Part shown: piece after piece, positions 4,364 through 63,211 of the stretch
How positions within the stretch are numbered: the first letter of the stretch is position 1
How the letters are laid out: each line of letters starts with the position of its first letter
Source of the DNA: a virus
Reading direction: 5' to 3' (one strand)
IMG/VR virus record: IMGVR_UViG_3300018057_000010
Span: 1-64,000 of that record
DNA length: 64,000 nt
Notes under the pieces: model-generated
Seen by the model: only the letters and a program-made list of their open reading frames with translations
What the model was told of the DNA's origin: nothing
Databases searched by the model: none
Made by a program: the position numbers and the translations under genes

Positions 4364-4948
4364 CTAGATCACTCCGATAGAAGGCAAATACCCATCGCCT
4401 GTCGTCCCGTCGATCCAATACTGGCTAAGAGTTTCTTCGTTCGCTAATCCCTGCCTTGAGGTTGAAAATTCGTAGGGCTGCACTCCGGAGACCGTAAATC
4501 CGATAAGGACAATCGTTCCTACCCCGGTAGCGGTCACCATTTGGGGCGTAGTGCCGATGTAAAGCAGGCCGGTATTTCCTGGCTTCCCTTGGATGTAAAG
4601 ACTCTGCGCAAAGGCTCCCAGGGCCACCCAAGCTCCCGTGCCGTAGGCTCCGCCTGGGTGTGCCTTCAAGATGCCGGTCACCTTGATGTGCGTGCTGTCT
4701 GTAACCTCTGCCACCATGCCGCGCTCGGTAACATATGTGGAAGGATCGACGACATTCACATAGTCGCTGCGCACAAACATGCTGCTGTCGGCCACGGTCA
4801 AGATCACCGGGTTGTTGATGTTCTGATCCCATCTCATTGCGTGCGCAGCGGCATTCGCCGTCACCGCCGCCGTCAGATAGGTTCCGACTACCGGCTGCGG
4901 CGTGCCTCCGGATTGGATTGTGAAATACTTGAAAGCCCTATTCGCCAC
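4364..4948 (-). CDS. putative small virion protein, 194 aa
   Basis: Beta-rich protein of Val, Thr, Gly and Ala with no Cys; it begins MANRAFKYFTIQSGGTPQPV and carries a segment like NNPVILTVADSSMFVRSDYV that reads as an oligosaccharide-binding or decoration-type fold. It overlaps the end of the 92-aa gene by 11 bases and ends two bases before the spike gene start, so all three are coupled. Position between neck and spike genes suggests a virion part; no family recognised. Confidence 0.55.
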   Translation of the reverse strand: MANRAFKYFTIQSGGTPQPVVGTYLTAAVTANAAAHAMRWDQNINNPVILTVADSSMFVRSDYVNVVDPSTYVTERGMVAEVTDSTHIKVTGILKAHPGGAYGTGAWVALGAFAQSLYIQGKPGNTGLLYIGTTPQMVTATGVGTIVLIGFTVSGVQPYEFSTSRQGLANEETLSQYWIDGTTGDGYLPSIGVI

Positions 4949-33731: not shown

Positions 33732-33937
33732 TAGTCTTTCGCCCCTTTCCGCTTCGAAATTACGTATCCCTCAGGGAGAGAAATGGTCATTCTTAAGATG
33801 TCACCTGTGGTCTTCCTAACGTCAAGCGGCTCCACATAGGCAACGGCATAGGGTTTGGTGTATACGCGAACAGCTACTTCAATGCGGTCCTGATCGTTCA
33901 TCCCTGCGATTACTGCTTTCAGCTCTCCAACTGTCAT
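33731..33937 (-). CDS. hypothetical protein, 68 aa
   Basis: MTVGELKAVIAGMNDQDRIE then a beta-rich end and RKGAKD tail. One-base overlap with the split gene downstream of the IS. Small proteins with this layout are common on plasmids. Unknown. Confidence 0.5.
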   Translation of the reverse strand: MTVGELKAVIAGMNDQDRIEVAVRVYTKPYAVAYVEPLDVRKTTGDILRMTISLPEGYVISKRKGAKD

Positions 33938-34225
33938 TACTGTTGTCCTTTCTCTGCATAGAAAGACGCCAAAGCTTCACAAGCTAGTTCAGCCTCAATC
34001 ACGCGTCTGTATTCGTTGTTGGCGTCATCAATACATCCGAGACTAGCAATAACATTGCCTTTTTCGTCACGGCAAATGCACTGCTCACAGCTATCAGGTT
34101 CGCGTTCCGCATAGGCGGAGTCGGCGCCGTACGCTTCCTTGTGGTTGCCTATGCTCCAATCATCGGACCACTCGAACGTATAGCCATAAGCGCGGGCGTC
34201 ACGCTCTGCTTTCGCAAGCTTGCGC

Positions 34226-34233
34226 GCTGTTTT
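34226..34233. repeat. target site duplication, left copy (GCTGTTTT)
   Basis: Eight bases directly outside the left end of the IS66 element, identical to 37097-37104. Eight-bp duplications are the rule for IS66. Confidence 0.9.
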
Positions 34234-34344
34234 GTAAGCGTCTACAGCAGGCCGTGTTGACGAAAATGGGGAGTGGGTGAATTGGGATATAGTCGTGTCC
34301 ACAGATGTTGCAAGTGGACACGACGAGAAGGAAATGTTGGTTAT

Positions 34345-34650
34345 TTACTTTGAGTGGGAATGATTGACTTCGTCGGTATAGATGTTACTGCTGAGGGCTT
34401 GGCCCACAGCCAGGTCAAGTCGTTGGAGGAGTTGGGGTAAAGATTCGCCGTCGCGGCGTACCAGCAGGGCCAAACTATTCTGTCCGTCGTGAGCTACGGC
34501 GACACAGTCGAAGGGGCGAAGCACGCCGAGGGTAATCTGGCCATAGCGGAGGATAAGCTCAGCGAGGTTGTGCCGCGATGAGAGATCCTTGCTTGTCTTT
34601 TCTACGCTGCCAGGTCGACCGGTTGCGGCAAGTTTGTTGCGACGTTCCAA
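34345..34650 (-). CDS. accessory frame of the IS66 element
   Basis: Begins inside the tnpC end (start uncertain; TTG only) and contains [20 protein letters not shown] and [20 protein letters not shown], a small protein I have seen behind tnpC in other IS66 elements. Not known to be needed for transposition. Confidence 0.45.
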
Positions 34651-36176
34651 GGTAGCAGTTCCTCGACACGGTTGATGGGATGATCGGCGATATGCTCCAA
34701 GACATAACGCAGATACGCTTCCGGGTCCAGACCATTGAGCTTGGCAGAGCCCACCAGGGAATAGATAGCTGCAGCCCGTTCCCCACCTGAGTCCGAGCCC
34801 GCGAACAGGTAATTCTTTCGGCCCACGGCAATGGAGCGCAAGGCCCTCTCGGCAGCGTTATTGTCTATCTCAATCCGACCATCGTCGCAGTAAAGCACCA
34901 GTGCACTCCAAAGGGCAAGAGCATAGCGAATCGCCGCCGCAGTGACAGACTTGGGTGACAGCTTGGCTAAAGACTCCTCGAGCCAGGCATGCATAGAATC
35001 TAGCAGTGGCCGCGCCCTTTGACTGCGAACCTGTTGTCGTTGCGCTGCGGGTCGTCCTCGAATTTCCTTTTCGATCGCATACAGGGCCGCGATGCGTTCC
35101 ACCGCTTCGCTGGCGATCGAAGACTGATGCGCTTCCACCAAGTCATAAAACTTACGGCGGATATGCGCCATACAGGGAGCCTGTTGGATGGAACCGTCTT
35201 TATAAATTTGGTTGAAACCGGCATAAGCATCTGCCTGGAGGATGCCATGGAAGTTCGCCAGATGCTGTTGCGGATGTTCTCCTTTGCGATCAGGCGAGTA
35301 AGCAAACCATGCAGCAGGTGCGTCCAAAGATCCCCAGGGGCGATCATCGCGAACGTAAGTCCACAAACGTCCGGTCTTGGTCTTGCCGTTGCCGGGAGCC
35401 AGGACCGGCACGGGTGTATCGTCGGCGTGCAGCTTGTCGGCCGCCATTACGTAGCGGCGCAAGGCTTCCACCAGCGGAGCAAGTAACTGACTACCTTCGC
35501 CTACCCACTTGGCTAACGTGGATCGATCCAGTTCGACACCTTCTCGGGCATAGATATCGGACTGTCGGTATAAGGGCAAATGATCACAAAATTTTGCAGT
35601 TAGCACGTGAGCTAGAAGTCCAGGACCGGCAAGACCGCGTTCAATCGGGCGGCTGGGCGCCGCTGCCTGCACGATGGTGTCGCATCCACTGCAGCACAGC
35701 CTGGGGCGCACATGCCGAATCACTACGAAGCTGGCCGGAATGTACTCTAGCACCTCAGAAATATCTTCGCCGAGCTTCTTCAGCGTGCCGCCGCAATCCG
35801 GGCAGGACTCTTGCTCAGGGAGATGCGTCTGAACTTTACGCGGCAGATGATCTGGCAGTGGGCGCCGCTTTCTGCCTGCTCTTCTTGCTGGCGAGGACGC
35901 AGTCTTAGCTGGAGTTTCACTCTCTGGCTGCGAGGCTTGTTCCGCCTGCTTGGCTTCCAGTTCTTCCAGCTTCAGTTCCAGTTGCTCGATCTGCCGGGTC
36001 AGCTTCTCCGACCGCCGTCCAAACTGCATACGTCGCAACTTGTCCACCAGCAGTTTCAGATGCTCGATCTCACTGTCGCTGGAGACGATCCGCAGTTGTT
36101 GCGCCACAATGATCGCCTTCAAAGCATCTGGCTCCAGAGCGTCCAGATCAGGCAACGAGAGGTGCGCGGCAACCAT
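34602..36176 (-). CDS. tnpC: IS66 transposase TnpC
   Basis: 524 aa. N-terminal leucine-zipper-like coiled coil ([20 protein letters not shown]), a Cys-rich zinc segment ([14 protein letters not shown]), then the DDE-type core with [23 protein letters not shown]-like QADAYAGF and [20 protein letters not shown] near the C-terminus. All are hallmarks of IS66 TnpC, the main transposase. Full length, no disruption seen. Confidence 0.92.
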
Positions 36177-36252
36177 GGAAAAAGTATGCCACAAACTATA
36201 ACTTTTGCACCATGCAAAATGAGCTATGAGGCATATAACTTATCAGATACGG

Positions 36253-36600
36253 TTACACTTCCATCAGGGGTGCAAAGCTACGCGCCGGCCTCCGCCAATC
36301 GATACCTTCGCATAACATCGAAAGTTGCGCCCGTGTCAGCGATACGGTTCCACTCTGCGCCTGAGGCCAAACATAGCGACCACGGTCAAGGCGTTTTTGA
36401 TATAGGCATAGACCGTCTCCATCGTGCCATAGAAGTTTTACCAGATCGCCTCTGCGCCCCCGAAAGATAAACACCTGACCGCAGAGAGGACTCTGTTGGA
36501 GCACAGTCTGCACCATCGCACATAGTCCCGTAAAACCACGTCACATGTCGGTCACTCCCGCCACGATCCAGATATCTGTGTTCGCCGGAAACGGAATCAT
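36253..36600 (-). pseudogene. tnpB: IS66 tnpB with premature stop
   Basis: The natural start (ATG at 36600, overlapping the tnpA stop as ATGA) reads MIPFPANTDIWIVAGVTDM then TGA at 36541-36543, then RGFTGLCAMVQTVLQQSP ... FRGRRGDLVKLLWHDG, the TnpB signature. The usual residue at the stop is Arg, so a single CGA-to-TGA change explains it. An internal ATG could restart at residue 29 and give 87 aa, but TnpB normally begins upstream. Confidence 0.85.
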
Positions 36601-36965
36601 CCTCGTAGGCTCTCCAGCACCGCCCGTATCGCCGTCAAGTCGGCACTGCCCACCACCCTTACCACGGCCCTTCCTGGAAACTCGATCTGAATCGTTCCCC
36701 TCGAGCCTTCAGTCGATTTCCTTGCTGGGGCTTCTTCCTGTGTTGCTTCGTCGTTGACTAGCACTGGCAGCAGACGCACACCTGTGCCTTCTGTATTACT
36801 GGACGGCTCGCCCAGGAGTCCTGCCTGATACAGCTTGCGCCAATGAAATAGTTGGTTAGCATTTATGCCATGCTCTCGTGCCACCATCGCCACCGATTTC
36901 CCTCCGCATAGCGTCTCCTCTACGATCTGACTCCGCTCCTCTCGCGTACGATACCGCCGCGTCAT
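36597..36965 (-). CDS. tnpA: IS66 transposase TnpA
   Basis: 122 aa from MTRRYRTREERSQIVEETLC. Helix-turn-helix near the N-terminus (SVAMVAREHGINANQLFHWR), typical of the IS66 TnpA DNA-binding protein. Intact. Confidence 0.85.
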   Translation of the reverse strand: MTRRYRTREERSQIVEETLCGGKSVAMVAREHGINANQLFHWRKLYQAGLLGEPSSNTEGTGVRLLPVLVNDEATQEEAPARKSTEGSRGTIQIEFPGRAVVRVVGSADLTAIRAVLESLRG

Positions 36966-37096
36966 CTTCCTTCCTGCAATCGCCTCTGTTCCTGTCTCCA
37001 TCCTTGCCCTCTCCCTGTGCCACCTTCAGTTGCACCACAAGACAAGAATGCCTAGCTGCGTTCATCCCGTCTAGACGGCCATCGCTCCACGCTTAC

Positions 37097-37104
37097 GCTG
37101 TTTT
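37097..37104. repeat. target site duplication, right copy (GCTGTTTT)
   Basis: Identical to 34226-34233, immediately outside the right end of the IS. Confidence 0.9.
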
Positions 37105-37238
37105 AGCCTTGCCTTGTGCAGGGGTTTCGGTTTGCGGGTTGTAGGAATAGCCTGCATTTGCTAGGAAAAACCGAAATGCGGCTTGCTGTGCGGTTTGCTT
37201 CTTGGCTGGAAACATCTCTCAGCTCCTTTCAGGTTGTT

Positions 37239-37262: not shown

Positions 37263-37291
37263 ATTCAATCACGGCTCTAAACTCACGTCAA
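37263..37291 (-). promoter_or_regulatory. sigma70-like promoter upstream of the IS-split gene
   Basis: TTGACG (37286-37291), 17-base spacer, TTGAAT (37263-37268), with an AT-rich block (AATTTTC) just upstream of the -35. Start would lie ~8 bases on, at the leader hairpin. Same architecture at 38238-38267 and 39550-39579. Confidence 0.65.
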
Positions 37292-37318
37292 GAAAATTAA
37301 ATGAATTTGCGGCATGGA

Positions 37319-37333
37319 GTCCGATAATCGGAC
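37319..37333. promoter_or_regulatory. dispersed palindrome copy 3 (GTCCGATAATCGGAC)
   Basis: Perfect 15-bp palindrome in the intergenic region about 28 bases upstream of the TTGACG -35 and just beside the iteron-like array. Strongest candidate operator of the eight copies. Confidence 0.55.
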
Positions 37334-37358
37334 ATAGGTGCGTGACTTGGCAAGGCTC

Positions 37359-37484
37359 CATCGTGCCAAGTTGGCATGATGCAAGGCGCCACATTGGCGC
37401 CATGGTGTGATGATACGAAAGGATTTAGATTGGGAAGAAATACCAGAGTGGCACGATGCAAGGCGCCACTCTGGCATGATACTA
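37359..37484. repeat. iteron-like array with the same core as the origin
   Basis: Direct-oriented units TTGGCATGATGCAAGG (37371), TTGGCGCCATGGTG (37394), GTGGCACGATGCAAGG (37448) and CTGGCATGATACTAGG (37471): each pair is spaced 23 bases, as in the origin. An inverted unit (TTGGCACGATGG) lies at 37359-37370. TTGGCGCCATGGT and TGGCACGATGCA are identical to segments at 60946 and 60871 in the initiator gene. Likely bound by the same initiator. Confidence 0.7.
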
Positions 37485-37946
37485 GGCAATTAGGCTGTTG
37501 TAAATCGCATCTGGCAAGTCATAAGTGCGCCGTGCTACAAAGATCGATACACCCTTTTCAGCACACATCTCGATACGGTTTTCGAGCGAAAGACTTTCCC
37601 AATAGGACATAGCTTCCTCATATTCAAGGTTGCTCCAGTCGTCCTCACACAACACGGGATAGTCTTCAAGCTTGCTTTCCATCTCTTCTGCTAGCTTAAT
37701 TTGTTCCGTTGCTGTCTTGTGTATCGCTATCCATTCAATCCAGCCGCAAGCCCAATGCGATTCTCGGACCACGGTTACAAGAGAGATGCCGTTGTCATCC
37801 TCTCCCGTTTCTCCGCCTAAACGCTCCAAGGCAACGCGGAAGTTACTCCGCTGCAATGCGCTGGAATCTCTGTTTTGACCAAGGAATATGTAATAGTCAG
37901 GCCATGAGGCGCCACAATAAGAGTCTGGAAGGGTCCAAAGGTTCAC
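37482..37946 (-). CDS. conserved plasmid/phage-type hypothetical protein, 154 aa
   Basis: Reads as a conserved alpha/beta protein: HWACGWIEWIAIHKTATEQI then EDYPVLCEDDWSNLEYEEAM and a C-terminal helix. The W-x-E-W-x-x-x-H ... YPVL-x-E-x-x-x-S-x-x-E pattern is one I recognise from a widespread plasmid protein of unknown function. Coupled to the 85-aa gene. Confidence 0.6.
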   Translation of the reverse strand: MNLWTLPDSYCGASWPDYYIFLGQNRDSSALQRSNFRVALERLGGETGEDDNGISLVTVVRESHWACGWIEWIAIHKTATEQIKLAEEMESKLEDYPVLCEDDWSNLEYEEAMSYWESLSLENRIEMCAEKGVSIFVARRTYDLPDAIYNSLIA

Positions 37947-38200
37947 AGGGAGCCGCCTTTCGTTGCAGGCAAGATGCGATATGCACGTGACAACTCTTCA
38001 ACGGTGCCTTTTGTAAAAGATTCCCATTTGCCATTGACTAGGCGCTCCGTATAAAGCTGTAAGACTCTGGAATCATTCACATAAGAATGTGCGGTAGAAA
38101 TTCTAAATATCTCTCCGGGGTATGCTGCCAGCCCAAAAGTAGCGGGAAACTTGGTTATCGCTGCATCTACTAAAGCTCTCTGTTCTGCGTATCCAATCAT
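37943..38200 (-). CDS. hypothetical protein, 85 aa
   Basis: Soluble beta-rich protein (YAEQRALVDAAITKFPATFG, then strands). First gene behind promoter 38238-38267 and leader hairpin 4. Unknown. Confidence 0.5.
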   Translation of the reverse strand: MIGYAEQRALVDAAITKFPATFGLAAYPGEIFRISTAHSYVNDSRVLQLYTERLVNGKWESFTKGTVEELSRAYRILPATKGGSL

Positions 38201-38387: not shown

Positions 38388-38624
38388 TTAAGAAGATCTT
38401 CCAAAGCTCCAACACTGCCATTGCGAGTCATCTGTAAGGTATTCAAGCACCTTCCCGAGATCTTCTGACTTGACTTTATAGGTGCGGTGATTGTAGCCAA
38501 GGTAATGAGGGAGATCTTTCCCGATATCGGATTCCTCAATCACCATAACCTGTCTGTAGCAGCTTGAAGGTCGCCCCCAAGCGTTAAGACCTGAGCTAGG
38601 CTTCCTCTCTGTGATGACTTTCAT
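38388..38624 (-). CDS. hypothetical protein, 78 aa
   Basis: MKVITERKPSSGLNAWGRPS; small soluble protein with YLGYNHRTYKVKSEDLGKVL. Start overlaps the 209-aa stop by ATGA. Unknown. Confidence 0.5.
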   Translation of the reverse strand: MKVITERKPSSGLNAWGRPSSCYRQVMVIEESDIGKDLPHYLGYNHRTYKVKSEDLGKVLEYLTDDSQWQCWSFGRSS

Positions 38625-39250
38625 AGCTCCTCATCTCCCCATGCGGCTTTGGCGGCCGCTTTCTCGCTCGCGAGTAACGCTTTGGTCTCTGCATCGAACA
38701 TTTGCGTAATGTCTTCATCGCGGTCTAACAGAGCGATCCAATCCCGCTCAATCGAGCCTTGTCTCGCGATAATCAAAATACCATCCTCACGGGGAATAGC
38801 CTTAAAACTGGTAACGTAAGACAGTGGAGAAATAGGTGCAACATACGTGCCATAGAATTCACACCCAAAGTGGTGACGTACATCCGGTTGCGTTTCCGAG
38901 TACCCACGTTTGCCGCCTAGATGAGCGCAAAAACTAGCCGCACCGCCTAAGTAAACGAACCCTTTCGGCTGCCCGTGGGGGTATCCATTCGTGTTTGAGG
39001 ACGGAATAAACACGGCTCGCTCAAATAGATCGGAGAATTTTGAAGCGGCTGGAAAAGCTAAGGCGCGAGAGGTTCTCTTACCCGCTTTCGCAGTAGCAAA
39101 AACAGACGGAACCCATGTGTATTTAGCTAGACGCTCCCAGAGCTTACCGCCAACTAGAGAACAGAATTCTTGAAAGGTCGTTGCTGCTTCGAATTCTTTC
39201 GCGTGCTCGTCGAATTCGGCATAAAAATCAAATGCGTTACTGTATGACAT
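38621..39250 (-). CDS. hypothetical protein, 209 aa
   Basis: Aromatic-rich N-terminus (AFDFYAEFDEHAKEFEAATT), a central Gly-rich fold and helical Lys/Ala end. Preceded by leader hairpin 5 and GGGGAG. Part of the plasmid-like block; no family recognised. Confidence 0.5.
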   Translation of the reverse strand: MSYSNAFDFYAEFDEHAKEFEAATTFQEFCSLVGGKLWERLAKYTWVPSVFATAKAGKRTSRALAFPAASKFSDLFERAVFIPSSNTNGYPHGQPKGFVYLGGAASFCAHLGGKRGYSETQPDVRHHFGCEFYGTYVAPISPLSYVTSFKAIPREDGILIIARQGSIERDWIALLDRDEDITQMFDAETKALLASEKAAAKAAWGDEEL

Positions 39251-54465: not shown

Positions 54466-55767
54466 TCAGGCAACAAAGCTCAAACTATCTGCATCGTATC
54501 TGCAAGAAACTCTCCCGCGCCTTCCCTCCCGCTGTTTGCGGATCGCGATCTCAGCATCGGAGCTTTCTTCCTCGGTTCTGAGTTCGAATAGGTTCTGGCA
54601 CGACTGCATCAACGACGACGATCCCTTAAGCCGCTTTTTCCCCTTGGAGTCTTCTCCATAGGAGTGTTGCGACAAGGCGATGACGTGAACCCCTTTTTCT
54701 GTCTTCGCCAAATCTCGTAGCCTGTAAGTGACTCGGTCCAATCTCTGGACGTCGTCTTTCACATCCGGGACTTCTACAATTTGCAAATAATCTAGAACAA
54801 TAATTCTCACACCGTACCGTGCAATAGCAAGTCGGGCGCGGGCGAGAATCTTGTCTAACGATAGACGCGAATTATCATCTACCCATAGTGGCAACTCAGC
54901 AAGCTTTTTTGATACATTTTTTAACTCCAGATAATCGGTGACATTTAAACTCCGTGGGTCCCGTATATCTTTGGCGCGAAGAAACTCCGACATAGGAGCG
55001 AAACACCGTCTTATTAACTGCTCTTTTGTCATCTCCAGAGAGAACCATAAGACGGGAATATCCTTACGCAAATTCGCCAAACTTATCTGGGTAGCGAACG
55101 CTGTTTTCCCGCCTCCAGTGTCTCCGGAAATGATCGTGTATTCGTTGGGATACAAGCCGCAAGTGCGCTCGTCGAGACCGGGAACTCCGGTGGTGAATCC
55201 CACGGTTTTCTGGGATCTATCGATCTTCCTTTGTTCCTCGATTTCAACTAAAACTTTGGGCAAAATAGCGGAGGCCCGCTGCATTTCCCCTGGCGCATCG
55301 GCGCTAATATCGAGCGCTTCGCTTTGCATCTCCGCCAGCAACTGATCGGGAGTTTCCGCCCCGTCCATAGCCCGAACGCCGATGCGGTCGCAGATCGAAA
55401 CTACCTTCCGTAACTGCGACTTTTTCAGGACAATATCGACATAGTTTTTGGGATCGAAGTGTCTCGGAATCCCGTCTGTGAGACCGGAAAGATAGGCCAC
55501 TCCTCCTATAGTTTCCAGCTCTCTTGTTTCGCGTAGCTTATTCGATAAAGTAATAATGTCGACATGTTGTCTATCTTCCAGGAGACCGGCAATAGATCCA
55601 AAGATTTTGCGGTGGGAATCCAGTCCGAAGTCCCCAATCGAGAGCTGCTCGGTCACTTCGAAATAGGATGAATTCTCCATCAGAATTAGGCCGAGGATAG
55701 CCTTCTCTGCCTCCACATTCATGTGGGACCAGTTGGCTTGCGGAGAGTTTCCCAAAGCGCTTCTCAC
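54466..55767 (-). CDS. dnaB: replicative DNA helicase DnaB
   Basis: 433 aa from a GTG that overlaps the upstream TAG by one base (ATG at 55722 is the alternative). N-terminal NVEAEKAILGLILMENSSYF domain, Walker A SGDTGGGKTAFATQ near residue 210, LWFSLEMTKEQLIRRC, and LDYLQIVEV (Walker B). Loads ahead of the fork as a hexamer and pairs with the loader-like gene upstream. Adjacent to the methyltransferase and nuclease genes. Confidence 0.88.
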   Translation of the reverse strand: MRSALGNSPQANWSHMNVEAEKAILGLILMENSSYFEVTEQLSIGDFGLDSHRKIFGSIAGLLEDRQHVDIITLSNKLRETRELETIGGVAYLSGLTDGIPRHFDPKNYVDIVLKKSQLRKVVSICDRIGVRAMDGAETPDQLLAEMQSEALDISADAPGEMQRASAILPKVLVEIEEQRKIDRSQKTVGFTTGVPGLDERTCGLYPNEYTIISGDTGGGKTAFATQISLANLRKDIPVLWFSLEMTKEQLIRRCFAPMSEFLRAKDIRDPRSLNVTDYLELKNVSKKLAELPLWVDDNSRLSLDKILARARLAIARYGVRIIVLDYLQIVEVPDVKDDVQRLDRVTYRLRDLAKTEKGVHVIALSQHSYGEDSKGKKRLKGSSSLMQSCQNLFELRTEEESSDAEIAIRKQREGRRGRVSCRYDADSLSFVA

Positions 55768-55982
55768 TATGCTATTTCCGATTGCTTTCTGGAAGTTTTT
55801 TGTGTGCGAAGCGTGGCGAGTTTGATCCACCAATCGATTTGTATCTTCTGCTTTTCTACATCCAAACCGACCTTTTGCTCGGCGGCAATATAGAGAGCAT
55901 CGGCCAGAGAACTTTCGAGAATGCGGTCGACTTTTTCGGCCGTATCCAGCGCCTGATGGGCTTTGTCGTAGAGGGATTTCAT
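55767..55982 (-). CDS. hypothetical helical protein, 71 aa
   Basis: MKSLYDKAHQALDTAEKVDR, helical with a Lys-rich end. Coupled between the methyltransferase and DnaB by overlapping ends. Unknown. Confidence 0.45.
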   Translation of the reverse strand: MKSLYDKAHQALDTAEKVDRILESSLADALYIAAEQKVGLDVEKQKIQIDWWIKLATLRTQKTSRKQSEIA

Positions 55983-58212: not shown

Positions 58213-59958
58213 TCACTGCAAAGATAGGTAGATCTGGTTACTACCAATTTCGTGTCCAAAGTAAGGTGTGGCCTCATTATCGGTAGTAGAAAAAAGTGCT
58301 TTATTTTCAGCTACATCAGAAGCCCGTCGACTGGCAATATCGATCAAATTCCCATCCATCCCTGCAACCGAGATCCAGAAACCGTCGATTCGAATCCGAA
58401 CATCCTTCCGGTTCTTCTCCGCATAGACGGCGACCTGAAACCCTACCCCAATAGAAGCAAGAAGTTTCCTTTTCGCTTCGTTATTCAGATAATCCCACTC
58501 AAGCAGAGGCTTCAACAGATCTAAGAATTTGTCCGTATCGACCGGTTCTTTGCGAGAAGTCATACCGTTCAACATACGCTTTGTTGCCTTCAGTTCTGCC
58601 TGCAACTTGTCGTCTTTTTCCGCGAAGACTTTTCTGTCGATTCTGCCATCGACATAGAGATCCTGGAGGCGATTAATCGAGCTTTCAAGGTTTGAGATCT
58701 CTTCTTCCAGAGCGCGGCGCTTCGAGGAGATTTCCTCTTCGGATTCCGAACCGATTTCGACCGAGAAGAGCTTCTCAACAAACTCTGGGTTCGCCAAGTT
58801 CTTAATCGCTTTATCGAGTTCCGTTTCGATCTTGTCCTTCGATACATTGGGGGATTTGCAAGCGAAGGGTTCCCCGGAAGCAGGGGTTATTGTCCGGCCA
58901 CGTTCGGCATTTCCGCAACGATAATAGAGGTAGGACAGGCTGTGGTTAGTAGTGTGCCTTTGCTTCTGGGTTTGCAAAAGACCACCGCAGAAGGAGCACC
59001 GCAACCGTCCACGATAAACGTACTGATCGTTCGTGCTCCACTTGCCTCGCGAAGTAGAAAACTCCTCGCGAATTTTCAGGATGCGTTGGACCTGTTCGAA
59101 AATCTCTTCGCTTATCGGCCCGCCATTTTCGAATCCAGCCAGCCTGATTCTTTCCTGTTCTTCTTGGTCGAAATACTTGAAACGCTGATACCGAAGCCTG
59201 CCATCTTCACGATAGACATTCAACTCTGGATCGACGGTTCTCCGTATAACGTTGTAGCCGGTATATACAGGATTTCTAAGAATGTATTGCACTCGGTCAC
59301 GGTTGAATCCAAGGTATCGTGCAATGCCAAGAATGTTCGTATTGCCGGAAATAAACTCGTTGAAAATCCACTTCACTTTCTCGATCTTGGCTTCGTCGAC
59401 GACTAGCTGTTTCGACTTCGGGTCTTTCTTGAATCCATAGGGAACATGGTCACCGCCTGTTACCCATTTCCCCGCCGACCGGAGGGATCTCCTGCCGGAA
59501 GTTGTCCTCTCGCGGATGACAGCGCGCTCGTGATCGGCCATGCCAAATTTCATCGACGCCCACAATCTTCCATGGGGAGTGCTGAAATCAATCACTCCGT
59601 CCGGGAGATAAATCTTGACGCCGTTCGTCTGGAGAATGCCGAGAACCATATAATCCCCAAAGGAGCCTGGACGAACCAATCTCGACTCTTCGCGCATGAT
59701 CACGCCATGGCATAAACCGGTCGCGCAGATCCTAAGCAGTTCTCTCATTCCCGGACTGCGCATTACCTGAGCGCCGCTTACGCCTTCGATCTCAATCGTC
59801 CATTTCACTTGGAGGTTGTACTCCGTTGCGATATCGCGGCAAGCTAATTTCTGAGCCGGGATGCCTCCACGGTCCTCTTCTGCCTGCTGCTCTGTCGATA
59901 CCCGAATCAGCTCAATCGCCGCCTTCTTCGGTTCAGCTTGCTTGTCTTTCGTTTTCAT
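58213..59958 (-). CDS. int: large serine integrase
   Basis: 581 aa. N-terminal catalytic domain with Ser at residue 21 (AIELIRVSTEQQAEEDRGGI) and EESRLVRPGSFGDYMVLGIL; then the recombinase domain (PYGFKKDPKSKQLVVDEAKI), a zinc ribbon (CSFCGGLLQTQKQRHTTNHS), and the C-terminal coiled coil (SKRRALEEEISNLESSINRL). Large serine integrases insert temperate phage DNA at att sites. No att core was identified in this window. Confidence 0.9.
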   Translation of the reverse strand: MKTKDKQAEPKKAAIELIRVSTEQQAEEDRGGIPAQKLACRDIATEYNLQVKWTIEIEGVSGAQVMRSPGMRELLRICATGLCHGVIMREESRLVRPGSFGDYMVLGILQTNGVKIYLPDGVIDFSTPHGRLWASMKFGMADHERAVIRERTTSGRRSLRSAGKWVTGGDHVPYGFKKDPKSKQLVVDEAKIEKVKWIFNEFISGNTNILGIARYLGFNRDRVQYILRNPVYTGYNVIRRTVDPELNVYREDGRLRYQRFKYFDQEEQERIRLAGFENGGPISEEIFEQVQRILKIREEFSTSRGKWSTNDQYVYRGRLRCSFCGGLLQTQKQRHTTNHSLSYLYYRCGNAERGRTITPASGEPFACKSPNVSKDKIETELDKAIKNLANPEFVEKLFSVEIGSESEEEISSKRRALEEEISNLESSINRLQDLYVDGRIDRKVFAEKDDKLQAELKATKRMLNGMTSRKEPVDTDKFLDLLKPLLEWDYLNNEAKRKLLASIGVGFQVAVYAEKNRKDVRIRIDGFWISVAGMDGNLIDIASRRASDVAENKALFSTTDNEATPYFGHEIGSNQIYLSLQ

Positions 59959-60151: not shown

Positions 60152-60448
60152 TTACCCAATTACTTCGTCGAGTGTCGGGATAATTAATCCTGGTACCGGA
60201 AATACAGTTCCGTGGCTGAGGTATCGCGTGAAAGCTTTATCGAGCTTTTTCCAGCTATAGCCTTTTACGAGATCCCACCATTCTTCGATGAGTTCCTCAT
60301 TTACCGGGCGGTTCCAAAACACCGCGCACTTGTACAGGAAGGCCGCCAGGAGCGCTCGCTTTTCCTGATCCTCCACTGAGCCATTTAGACAGATGTTCCC
60401 GATTATTCCTGTTGAGGCTTTCTGCTTGATCATGCTTTCCACCGACAT
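60152..60448 (-). CDS. helicase-loader-like replication protein, 98 aa
   Basis: SD GGGAGGAAATTCG before ATG. RALLAAFLYKCAVFWNRPVN then LIEEWWDLVKGYSWKKLDKA and FPVPGLI, the layout of small phage helicase loaders or replisome organisers (G39P/DnaI-like N-domains). Located between initiator and DnaB, the expected order. Overlaps the initiator gene out of frame by 152 bases. Confidence 0.6.
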   Translation of the reverse strand: MSVESMIKQKASTGIIGNICLNGSVEDQEKRALLAAFLYKCAVFWNRPVNEELIEEWWDLVKGYSWKKLDKAFTRYLSHGTVFPVPGLIIPTLDEVIG

Positions 60449-61295
60449 CGAATTTCCTCCCATATCTATCGAGCGGGCTCTCATAATAACTCATCAACCT
60501 GCGTATCCAATAGCGAATTGGTTCGCTATGAATAACCTCGCTGCGCGCTCTATGTTGCAGACATTGACGCCATTGTTCCTGAGTAAGCAAGGGAAAGTCG
60601 CGAAGGAATTCTTTTACTGCCTTGCCATCGATCTTGCCATTGAAAGGCATCTCTACGCCGGGATTTTTCGTATCCCAGTAAAGCTTTAAATCCTCACGAA
60701 TCGGATTCCAACGAAGATCGCGAGCTTCCTTCTCCTGTTTGGGCTTCGCTTCTTGCGAAGTCAAAACAAGGGGTTCTTCTGTTTTTCTATGTTCTTTCTT
60801 CTTGATATAAACATGGCGCCAATTTGGCGCTATCGATGACGTCAATTTGGCGCTATCGATGGCGCCATTCTGGCACGATGCATCGACCGCTTCTGGCGCA
60901 GCTAATTGCGTATTTGCTGGGATTTCTGCAGCTTGCTGCGTCAAGTTGGCGCCATGGTCGATTTGGTCTTCCAGCTGGTCCAGGCGCTCATAGTCGATGG
61001 TGTAATACTTTGTCCTATCCCATGAACTTCTGACGCCCTGGCGGGTCTTCAGCAGGCCCCGGCGCTCCAGGCTGAGAGCGATTCGCTGGATGGTTCTAGC
61101 GCTGCAATGGGTTAATTTTTCTCCCCACTCTTCGTAGGATCTGGATGTCCAAACGACTCCGTCTTCGACGAACTCTCTCCGATTGAGAAGGTAATGGACC
61201 TGTTGCAACAACAATGCTTCATTGACGCCGACTCTGCGAGCCAAGCTCGGCAAAACAAGCAGAGGAGCTTCCTCGATCAGTAACTTGCTAGACAT
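60297..61295 (-). CDS. replication initiator, wHTH, 332 aa
   Basis: Start MSSKLLIEEAPLLVLPSLAR with GAGG upstream. Winged-helix N-domain (LLLQQVHYLLNRREFVEDGV, CSARTIQRIALSLERRGLLK), a long Ala/Gln/Ser linker (residues ~145-185) and a C-terminal helical domain (FPLLTQEQWRQCLQHRARSE). The linker is encoded by the DNA carrying four 23-bp iterons, as in lambda O. It should bind the iterons and recruit the loader and DnaB. C-terminal end overlaps the next gene. Confidence 0.75.
   Translation of the reverse strand: MSSKLLIEEAPLLVLPSLARRVGVNEALLLQQVHYLLNRREFVEDGVVWTSRSYEEWGEKLTHCSARTIQRIALSLERRGLLKTRQGVRSSWDRTKYYTIDYERLDQLEDQIDHGANLTQQAAEIPANTQLAAPEAVDASCQNGAIDSAKLTSSIAPNWRHVYIKKKEHRKTEEPLVLTSQEAKPKQEKEARDLRWNPIREDLKLYWDTKNPGVEMPFNGKIDGKAVKEFLRDFPLLTQEQWRQCLQHRARSEVIHSEPIRYWIRRLMSYYESPLDRYGRKFDVGGKHDQAESLNRNNREHLSKWLSGGSGKASAPGGLPVQVRGVLEPPGK
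60770..60815. other. AT-rich segment beside the iterons (possible unwinding element)
   Basis: About 45 bases within the initiator gene, dominated by T on the plus strand (TTTTTCTATGTTCTTTCTTC), directly next to the first iteron. Matches the layout of lambda-type origins. Coding constraint could also contribute. Confidence 0.5.
60820..60911. repeat. origin iterons, four 23-bp units
   Basis: Units at 60820, 60843, 60866 and 60889. The first two share CAATTTGGCGCTATCGATG exactly; the third (CATTCTGGCACGATGCATCG) and fourth (GCTTCTGGCGCAGCTAATTG) are degenerate. Period 23 is not a codon multiple, so a protein repeat cannot explain it. A fifth related unit, TTGGCGCCATGGT, lies at 60946-60958. Together with the AT-rich block this is the most likely replication origin. 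Confidence 0.75.
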
Positions 61296-61329
61296 ATATG
61301 CCTCGGAATTAGGCAGGGGAAGTGAGATA

Positions 61330-61357
61330 AAAATAGGGCCGGTCGCCATCCGGCCCT
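61330..61357 (-). terminator. intrinsic terminator behind the regulator gene
   Basis: Leftward AGGGCCGG-ATGGCGA-CCGGCCCT then ATTTTTATC. Lies between the XRE-type gene and the initiator, directly after the structured element at 61361-61451. Confidence 0.8.
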
Positions 61358-61360
61358 ACC

Positions 61361-61451
61361 GCGTTGAGCTACCCAAGGGAGTGGGTTGCCGGATTAACAT
61401 CTAAGTTTGGAAACTTCGATGTTAAGGCCCTCCGGCAACTAAGCTCAACGC
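61361..61451 (-). ncRNA. three-helix structured element at the end of the regulator gene
   Basis: Outer helix GCGTTGAGCT / AGCTCAACGC (10 bp; includes the TGA stop of the regulator), a short ACCCA / TGGGT hairpin, and a long arm TTGCCGGA-TTAACATC ... GATGTTAA-TCCGGCAA with inner AAGTT / AACTT and a 5-base bulge. This is a three-way-junction shape. It precedes the terminator on the leftward strand. A tRNA fold was considered and rejected; class unknown. Confidence 0.5.
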
Positions 61452-61738
61452 AACTTAACAACTCTTCCGCCAGAAATCAATGACCTATTGAAAACCGGTC
61501 TTCTGGCGGAAGAGTCTAATTCGTGGCCCCAAATATCTTCGACCGTGACTTGAAAATAACGCGCTATGGCGATCGCCACGGGAAGCTTTGGATATTGTCC
61601 GGCCAGGATTAACGCCGCCGAGTTATAGCTGACTCCAAACTGGCTCGCAAACTCGCGTACGCTCATTTTATTGAAGCGCACCATGCGCTGCAGCGGATCT
61701 AGTCCTGGTTCGTCCCATGGTTGATTTTTGAATTTCAT
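61445..61738 (-). CDS. HTH (XRE-like) regulator, 97 aa
   Basis: Contains SVREFASQFGVSYNSAALIL, a helix-turn-helix followed by recognition-helix-like residues, and LPVAIAIARYFQVTVEDIWG, the typical XRE end. Basic tail. May bind one of the palindromes; not shown. Ends within the structured element. Confidence 0.7.
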   Translation of the reverse strand: MKFKNQPWDEPGLDPLQRMVRFNKMSVREFASQFGVSYNSAALILAGQYPKLPVAIAIARYFQVTVEDIWGHELDSSARRPVFNRSLISGGRVVKLR

Positions 61739-62597: not shown

Positions 62598-62930
62598 TTA
62601 TTTCTTCTCTGCCTTAGCAGGTTCCTGCGTCGTATGCATGAACTTCCTGCTCTGGTAATCGTAATAATAATCCTTACCCCAGCCACGATTCACTTGAATA
62701 GAAAGAACGGCATTCTGTAGCGCGAGCTGCGCCTTTTCGACGTCCTGCCAGCGAACGAGAAGCACAGTCTCTTCTTCCTGAGATAGGGAGACGGGAGCAG
62801 GCGCGGAGCCAGCTTTTGCCACTGGAGGCGCTGCGGGTTGCTCTTGTTTGTTCTGGGTAAAGGCCGGAGACGCCAGCGCGATGATTACGACCGCCCCGGC
62901 AAAAAGGGACGTCCAATTCACTATCTTCAT
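62598..62930 (-). CDS. secreted small protein, 110 aa
   Basis: N-terminus MKIVNWTSLFAGAVVIIALA then SPAFTQ: a Sec signal with AFT|Q-type cleavage. Mature part Ala/Pro-rich then a coiled-coil helix (EEETVLLVRWQDVEKAQLAL). No lipobox. ATGA overlap with the acyl carrier gene. A periplasmic role is inferred. Confidence 0.6.
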   Translation of the reverse strand: MKIVNWTSLFAGAVVIIALASPAFTQNKQEQPAAPPVAKAGSAPAPVSLSQEEETVLLVRWQDVEKAQLALQNAVLSIQVNRGWGKDYYYDYQSRKFMHTTQEPAKAEKK

Positions 62931-63211
62931 TTGCTCTCCTCAAGTTTTTCCGCGACATACTGATACACCTGCCCCAGCGTTCGCAGCTTTTCGAAATCGG
63001 CCTCGTCTGTTTCGATTTCGAACTCGTCTTCCAATTCGAAGAGGACAAATTCGCAATCGAGAGAGTCGGCGCCAAGGTCTTTTACGATCTCCGCTTCCGG
63101 AGTCAGCTGATTGGAGCTCAAGTGGTGAAGCTGCTTTATGACGATCAAGTCGATCTTGTCTTTAAGCTCTTTCATGGCCTCAGGATCGGAAGTGATGGGT
63201 TTGTTCTTCAT
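62927..63211 (-). CDS. acpP: acyl carrier protein
   Basis: 94 aa. LTPEAEIVKDLGADSLDCEF with Ser 50 in the DSL motif, the phosphopantetheine attachment site, then VLFELEDEFEIETDEADFEK, the acidic helix II/III region that binds partner enzymes. Size and acidity match ACP. Carries an extra N-terminal ~10 residues. Would need a host holo-ACP synthase. In phages ACPs are rare accessory genes. Confidence 0.85.
   Translation of the reverse strand: MKNKPITSDPEAMKELKDKIDLIVIKQLHHLSSNQLTPEAEIVKDLGADSLDCEFVLFELEDEFEIETDEADFEKLRTLGQVYQYVAEKLEESK

Follow-up and report, generated by a model that had tools for sequence, protein, structure and literature searches.

The intergenic array and its genome

The stretch of DNA analysed here (the window) comprises bases 1-64000 of a 79,137-bp IMG/VR virus record. 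Within it, a 267-bp intergenic gap, which extends from the stop of an ORF at 37482-37946 (-) to a leftward gene start at ~37214, holds an array of four dyads at 37359-37481 (+), recognised from its letters and from half-site and tandem patterns (array A). The first-pass annotation had called this array non-coding, and it does occupy part of the gap. The ORF whose stop adjoins it encodes 154 amino acids and is of unassigned function. The leftward gene has been broken by an IS66-family insertion carrying tnpA, tnpB and tnpC (34234-37096, -), which separates a 5' part (37105-37214, -), starting at ~37214 after AAAGGAG, from a 3' part at 33937-34225. A perfect 8-bp target duplication, GCTGTTTT, flanks the element, with copies at 34226-34233 and 37097-37104, and when the flanks are rejoined the empty site gives a single open frame. 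The insertion is probably recent.

Two leftward promoter-like sites lie at the array: TTTACA-17-TATCAT (37476-37504, -; 10/12 consensus) overlaps its last unit, and TTGCCA-18-GATTAT (37324-37353, -; 9/12 consensus) reads away from it. The earlier placement of the array upstream of a promoter agrees with these two sites, although as weak matches to a consensus (2 found, 0.6 expected) they make any such promoter a tentative one. To the left, ~57 bp from the first unit, the DNA is AT-rich and thermally weak (37263-37302; 67.5% A+T, top 0.8% of 40-mers), and is a possible unwinding element for array A. By 30-bp stability (37278) it ranks in the top 0.15% of windows, and in the top 0.15-2.9% depending on window size, which is unremarkable for an intergenic gap.

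Another record, L009/G001, represents the same phage, at 99.9-99.99% identity to the first across the parts in common. It lacks window positions 22877-54502, and is hence uninformative on array A. It bridges both contig ends via 17.1 kb of additional sequence, and because it joins them the genome is taken to be circular or circularly permuted, at ~96.3 kb. Long tandem-like repeats, ~70 bp apart, are present at 78682-79131 of the record and at 39.8-40.5 kb of G001, and the repeat field at the contig end is probably the cause of the assembly break there. The phage is a tailed one, as its terminase and portal genes confirm. GC skew is monotonic round the circle and uninformative for the origin. 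Inside the replication gene cluster lies the gene for a large serine recombinase (58213-59958, -) with Resolvase, Recombinase and zinc ribbon domains, whose integrase kind suggests a temperate phage. Neither ParA (PF13614) nor ParB (PF02195) was found in either record (~96 kb covered). With these genes missing and an integrase-type recombinase present, the earlier idea of a phage-plasmid is unsupported.

Just beyond the window, a Cas9-like protein of 1067 aa is encoded at 72855-76058 (+) of the record (L008:12856-16059), with Pfam matches to Cas9_a (1e-9) and HNH_4 (4e-7). It is followed from 76082 by 36-nt direct repeats in 66-bp steps with 30-nt spacers; a further copy lies at 77428, and a degenerate set in the opposite orientation at ~78020-78413. 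Within the window, a 94-aa ORF (62927-63211, -) is a putative acyl carrier protein, recognised by eye from the motif GADSLD.

The perfect 15-bp palindrome reported beside array A is real (GTCCGATAATCGGAC, 37319-37333) and contains the -10-like hexamer of the promoter-like site at 37324-37353. It belongs to a dispersed set: GTCCRATNRTYGGAC has 13 sites at no more than 2 mismatches, against a mean of 0.41 and a maximum of 5 for permuted half-site controls, and is the most over-represented among all 16,384 possible 15-bp palindromes of its form. The sites lie at 37319-37333, 31813, 34154, 39545, 45288, 58082 and 63441 in the window, at 65969, 71765, 72924 and 74532 in the rest of the record, and at 85372 and 95353 in the 17-kb link (joined-circle numbering), with none in the 0-31 kb part that holds the structural genes. 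Some are intragenic, including two within the Cas9 gene, and the palindrome was not found in 12 other phage records. Judged from sequence, the set may represent dispersed operators or stoperators of a phage repressor, and a Cro/C1-type HTH protein (61445-61738, -), encoded directly upstream of the initiator gene, is a candidate for its reader.

Dyads shared with the initiator gene

The initiator, of 350 aa (60297-61349, -), consists of a winged helix, a linker encoded by iterons and a divergent C-terminus. Inside its ORF lie the four dyads of the presumed primary origin (array B, 60812-60956, +), with centres at 60823, 60846, 60869 and 60945 (steps 23, 23 and 76). The two arrays are 23.3 kb apart on the ~96 kb circle. 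The weakest local DNA sits left of both, extreme at B and moderate at A: the AT-rich stretch adjoining the left of B (60775-60814; 75% A+T, top 0.05%) is its presumed unwinding element, and at 60782 it falls in the top 0.008% of 30-bp windows.

Array A shares with array B a unit that is a dyad of ~21 bp with a one-base centre and the consensus ATSGYGCCAANTTGGCRYSAT. The first dyad, ATCGTGCCAA-G-TTGGCATGAT (37359-37381, +), is strong in both halves, and is followed by AAGGCGCCAC-A-TTGGCGCCAT (37382-37404, +), by a dyad with a strong right half and a degenerate left half (37436-37458, +), and by AAGGCGCCAC-T-CTGGCATGAT (37459-37481, +). The centres lie at 37370, 37393, 37447 and 37470, in steps of 23, 54 and 23. 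The array had been described as four direct units and one inverted unit, and all five are in place, the inverted one at 37359-37369 (TTGGCACGATG) and the direct ones starting at 37371, 37394, 37448 (GTGGCACGATG) and 37471 (CTGGCATGATA), but the core given for them does not hold at 37448 and 37471. The 23-base step within each pair (37371/37394 and 37448/37471) was found as described, as were two exact copies of parts of the origin, TTGGCGCCATGGT (37394, identical to 60946) and TGGCACGATGCA (37449, identical to 60871). What had been overlooked is an 18/19 match in inverted orientation between 37386-37404 and 60812-60830, and the fact that the direct units are all right halves of dyads of ~21 bp, whose left halves lie at 37359, 37382 and 37459, with the degenerate one at 37436.

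The arrays are alike in polarity, each having an inverted half-site leftmost and then direct units in the same direction. The tandem-unit pattern TGGCRYNATSNNNNNNNYCANNNTGGCRYNAT occurs 4 times in the 64 kb, twice per array, with 0 expected from 100 shuffles. When a half-site matrix was trained on array B alone, the densest cluster outside B on the 96.3-kb circle was array A, with 13 matches in 130 bp, whereas none of 200 order-3 Markov genomes had a cluster of more than 10. The reverse training, from A, leads back to B, by a small margin (9 vs 7 for the runner-up cluster). Scored with a dyad matrix, array A reaches 60.5 and array B 100.3, and elsewhere in the circle outside the gene no score exceeds 6.8. 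A chance resemblance could draw on the frequency of single half-sites with one mismatch (43 found, 28 expected), but the shuffles, the Markov genomes and the dyad-matrix scores speak against it, and we rejected it as of negligible probability given the tandem pattern and a B-trained cluster beyond the Markov maximum. There is strong support, from the matrices, the tandem pattern and relatives of the phage, for the claim that array A and the in-gene origin have their units in common.

Those relatives have homologous initiators. The profile matches of the present initiator are to phrog_6493 (DnaD-like helicase loader; 2e-27) and, more weakly, to PHROGs of O-like initiators, and in an alignment of 63 family members its N-terminal winged helix is homologous to theirs. 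Downstream, where a G39P-like loader would lie, is a small ORF of fitting size (60152-60484, -) that has 24-26% identity to such a loader and no Pfam match, and a DnaB-type replicative helicase is encoded at 54466-55833 (-). The PDB yielded nothing useful when searched by single sequence or by profile. In an AlphaFold model the winged helix has blocks within residues 31-130 at pLDDT of at least 90, and its best PDB matches include RepA N-terminal domains and a Rep-DNA complex (4pql, 5kbj, 4pt7). Generic, unrelated winged helices score nearly as well as these predicted fold matches (E 2e-3 to 1e-2).

A scan of IMG/VR for nothing but the iteron pattern returned 14 stretches, and besides the present phage those in L028 and L032 lie in homologous initiator genes (tblastn 1e-17 and 3e-23). 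The pattern alone thus finds homologous initiator genes, which indicates that site and protein travel together. Dyads centred on CAA/TTG stand directly past the winged-helix segment in relatives from Firmicutes phages, and the same placement is seen in contigs binned as Acidobacteria, Taibaiella, Nitrospirae, Thermomicrobiales and others. Linkers hold 1.43 dyads on average compared with 0.40 in random windows, and 31 of 96 members individually exceed the 95% level. Because the sites co-occur with the initiator family, we strongly infer binding of the initiator to both arrays, and binding of array A by the phage's own initiator appears very probable.

A second array was sought in 33 genomes with homologous initiators, using for each phage a dyad matrix trained on its in-gene sites; a half-site model pooled over all relatives had drifted between motif classes, and per-phage models were used instead. 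Clear in-gene arrays are present in 17 of the 33 (score 54-169), one of which is a circular plasmid record. In these informative genomes, some of whose records are partial, no second array was found outside the gene (no cluster above 15.5). For about half of the relatives no dyad model could be used, and the verdict on them comes from a coarse k-mer test alone, which is noisy in AT-rich genomes. An outside cluster in G004 (27.6) was distrusted, its model having been trained on one site. No further contig holding the array A region was found in the public viral collection: a contig of the same phage (G040) stops at ~33964, short of the array, queries with 38621-39250 and 37943-38200 found nothing, and relatives of the 154-aa ORF have no array beside it.

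Possible roles of array A

We favour the reading, with a probability of about one half, that array A is a second initiator-binding array acting like oriR of SPP1, as an auxiliary origin or a fork barrier. In such a scheme, dimers of the initiator (60297-61349) would fill the four dyads of array A. The filled array could then be an origin, late or auxiliary, or alternatively a protein block at which forks arriving from array B stall, and a stall at this point could help replication pass from the circle-to-circle to the concatemer mode. Every step after binding at array A is proposed by analogy. A point against the comparison with oriR is that array A has only four dyads, one of them with a poor left half. 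The annotation had offered copy control or a second origin, and of these two the latter is the better, because SPP1 has exactly such a layout.

Since promoter-like sites read leftward within and beside array A, the array may instead be regulatory: the initiator would repress or activate the promoters at 37504-37476 and 37353-37324 and so couple the left operon to replication. Array A lies upstream of the leftward gene start at ~37214, one promoter-like site runs into its last unit and the other borders its first, and the nearer -10 hexamer falls within the dispersed operator-like palindrome. We nevertheless regard an operator as unlikely, given that the promoters are weak matches, that four dyads over 123 bp in 23-bp steps form a layout more like an origin than an operator, and that the first gene of the left operon is now broken by IS66. 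A promoter role would in any case be compatible with one in replication. In iteron plasmids, incompatibility loci consist of a separate, non-initiating array of origin units, and the combination of an origin array with a separate array matches that arrangement. Array A could accordingly be imagined as a copy-control locus that holds back initiator by titration or pairs with array B by handcuffing. This is possible in principle but rather improbable here: the missing ParA and ParB and the large serine recombinase argue against a maintained plasmid state, and no such locus was seen in the 17 relatives with clear in-gene arrays, including the circular plasmid record.

Array A might also have no function at all, as what is left of the middle part of an initiator gene, once duplicated or replaced and now decaying. 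Its units are less regular than those of array B, and the region is unstable, with an IS66 insertion nearby. Against such a relic, the array A region and the initiator gene show no similarity past the units themselves, and the surviving letters are dyads at exact 23-bp steps, as if the sites and not the protein had been kept. We consider it very unlikely, and its specific form, in which array A is part of an initiator gene that was duplicated, was rejected because the similarity ends at the units.

Comparison with known systems

In Lambda O and O-like initiators, the iterons also lie inside the initiator gene. The present initiator has weak profile matches to O-like PHROGs, but is only distantly similar to that of Lambda, which has a single origin array. 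The RepA_N plasmid initiators of pSK41 and pTZ2162 likewise have an N-terminal winged helix and semi-palindromic direct repeats (Rep boxes) in mid-rep that encode a linker, the four boxes of pSK41 being central within rep. They differ in that Pfam RepA_N (PF06970) matches neither the initiator nor any of its 63 relatives, and the best fold match is weak (E 2e-3). Firmicutes phages with phrog_6493 initiators, such as phiIPLA88 and Geobacillus phage NIIg9.7, have a homologous initiator with in-gene dyads in the same place, but a second array was found in none of the 17 informative genomes. Dyad iterons just past the winged helix should provide a rule for locating likely origins across this large family of phage initiators.

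The two-array layout was otherwise found only in the Bacillus subtilis phage SPP1 and its close kin, which makes SPP1 the nearest precedent; there the second array would be a late second origin or a point of fork stalling. In SPP1, oriL lies in the initiator gene 38 and oriR in a distant intergenic gap, G38P binds both, and the role proposed for oriR is to halt the fork and so set off concatemer synthesis (PMC3485210, PMC6316719). As in SPP1, the present phage has a primary array within the initiator gene, a distant intergenic array of shared repeats, and a gene for a DnaB-type helicase nearby. An AT-rich element lies near each array of SPP1; the possible counterpart here is clear at B and moderate at A. 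As a positive control, a k-mer comparison of the SPP1-like phage 049ML001, whose initiator is 98% identical to G38P, recovers oriR: the top window is the intergenic gap at 4498-4834, with a score of 44 (control maximum 43) and shared repeats visible. The two systems differ in the distance between arrays (12-13 kb in SPP1 vs 23.3 kb here) and in the repeats, those of SPP1 looking unlike the present 21-bp dyads at 23-bp steps. The winged helix of G38P is not detectably related to that of the present initiator (BLASTP E 0.35), and in a comparison of profiles (hhalign) at family level, G38P matches only the C-terminal domain that some family members carry. From these BLASTP and profile results, the layout is SPP1-like and the DNA-binding part not detectably the same.

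One tentative explanation, which we would not yet put at even odds, is that a phage with a RepA/DnaD-like winged-helix initiator independently acquired an SPP1-like second array, in which case a two-site switch from theta to concatemer replication would be convergent. The theta-to-concatemer switch is well argued in SPP1, where fork stalling is ascribed to the initiator on the second array. If the reading is true, a second such phage would suggest convergence rather than a peculiarity of SPP1, and the same two-array layout with a DNA-binding part not detectably related would offer an independent system for testing the SPP1 fork-stall model.
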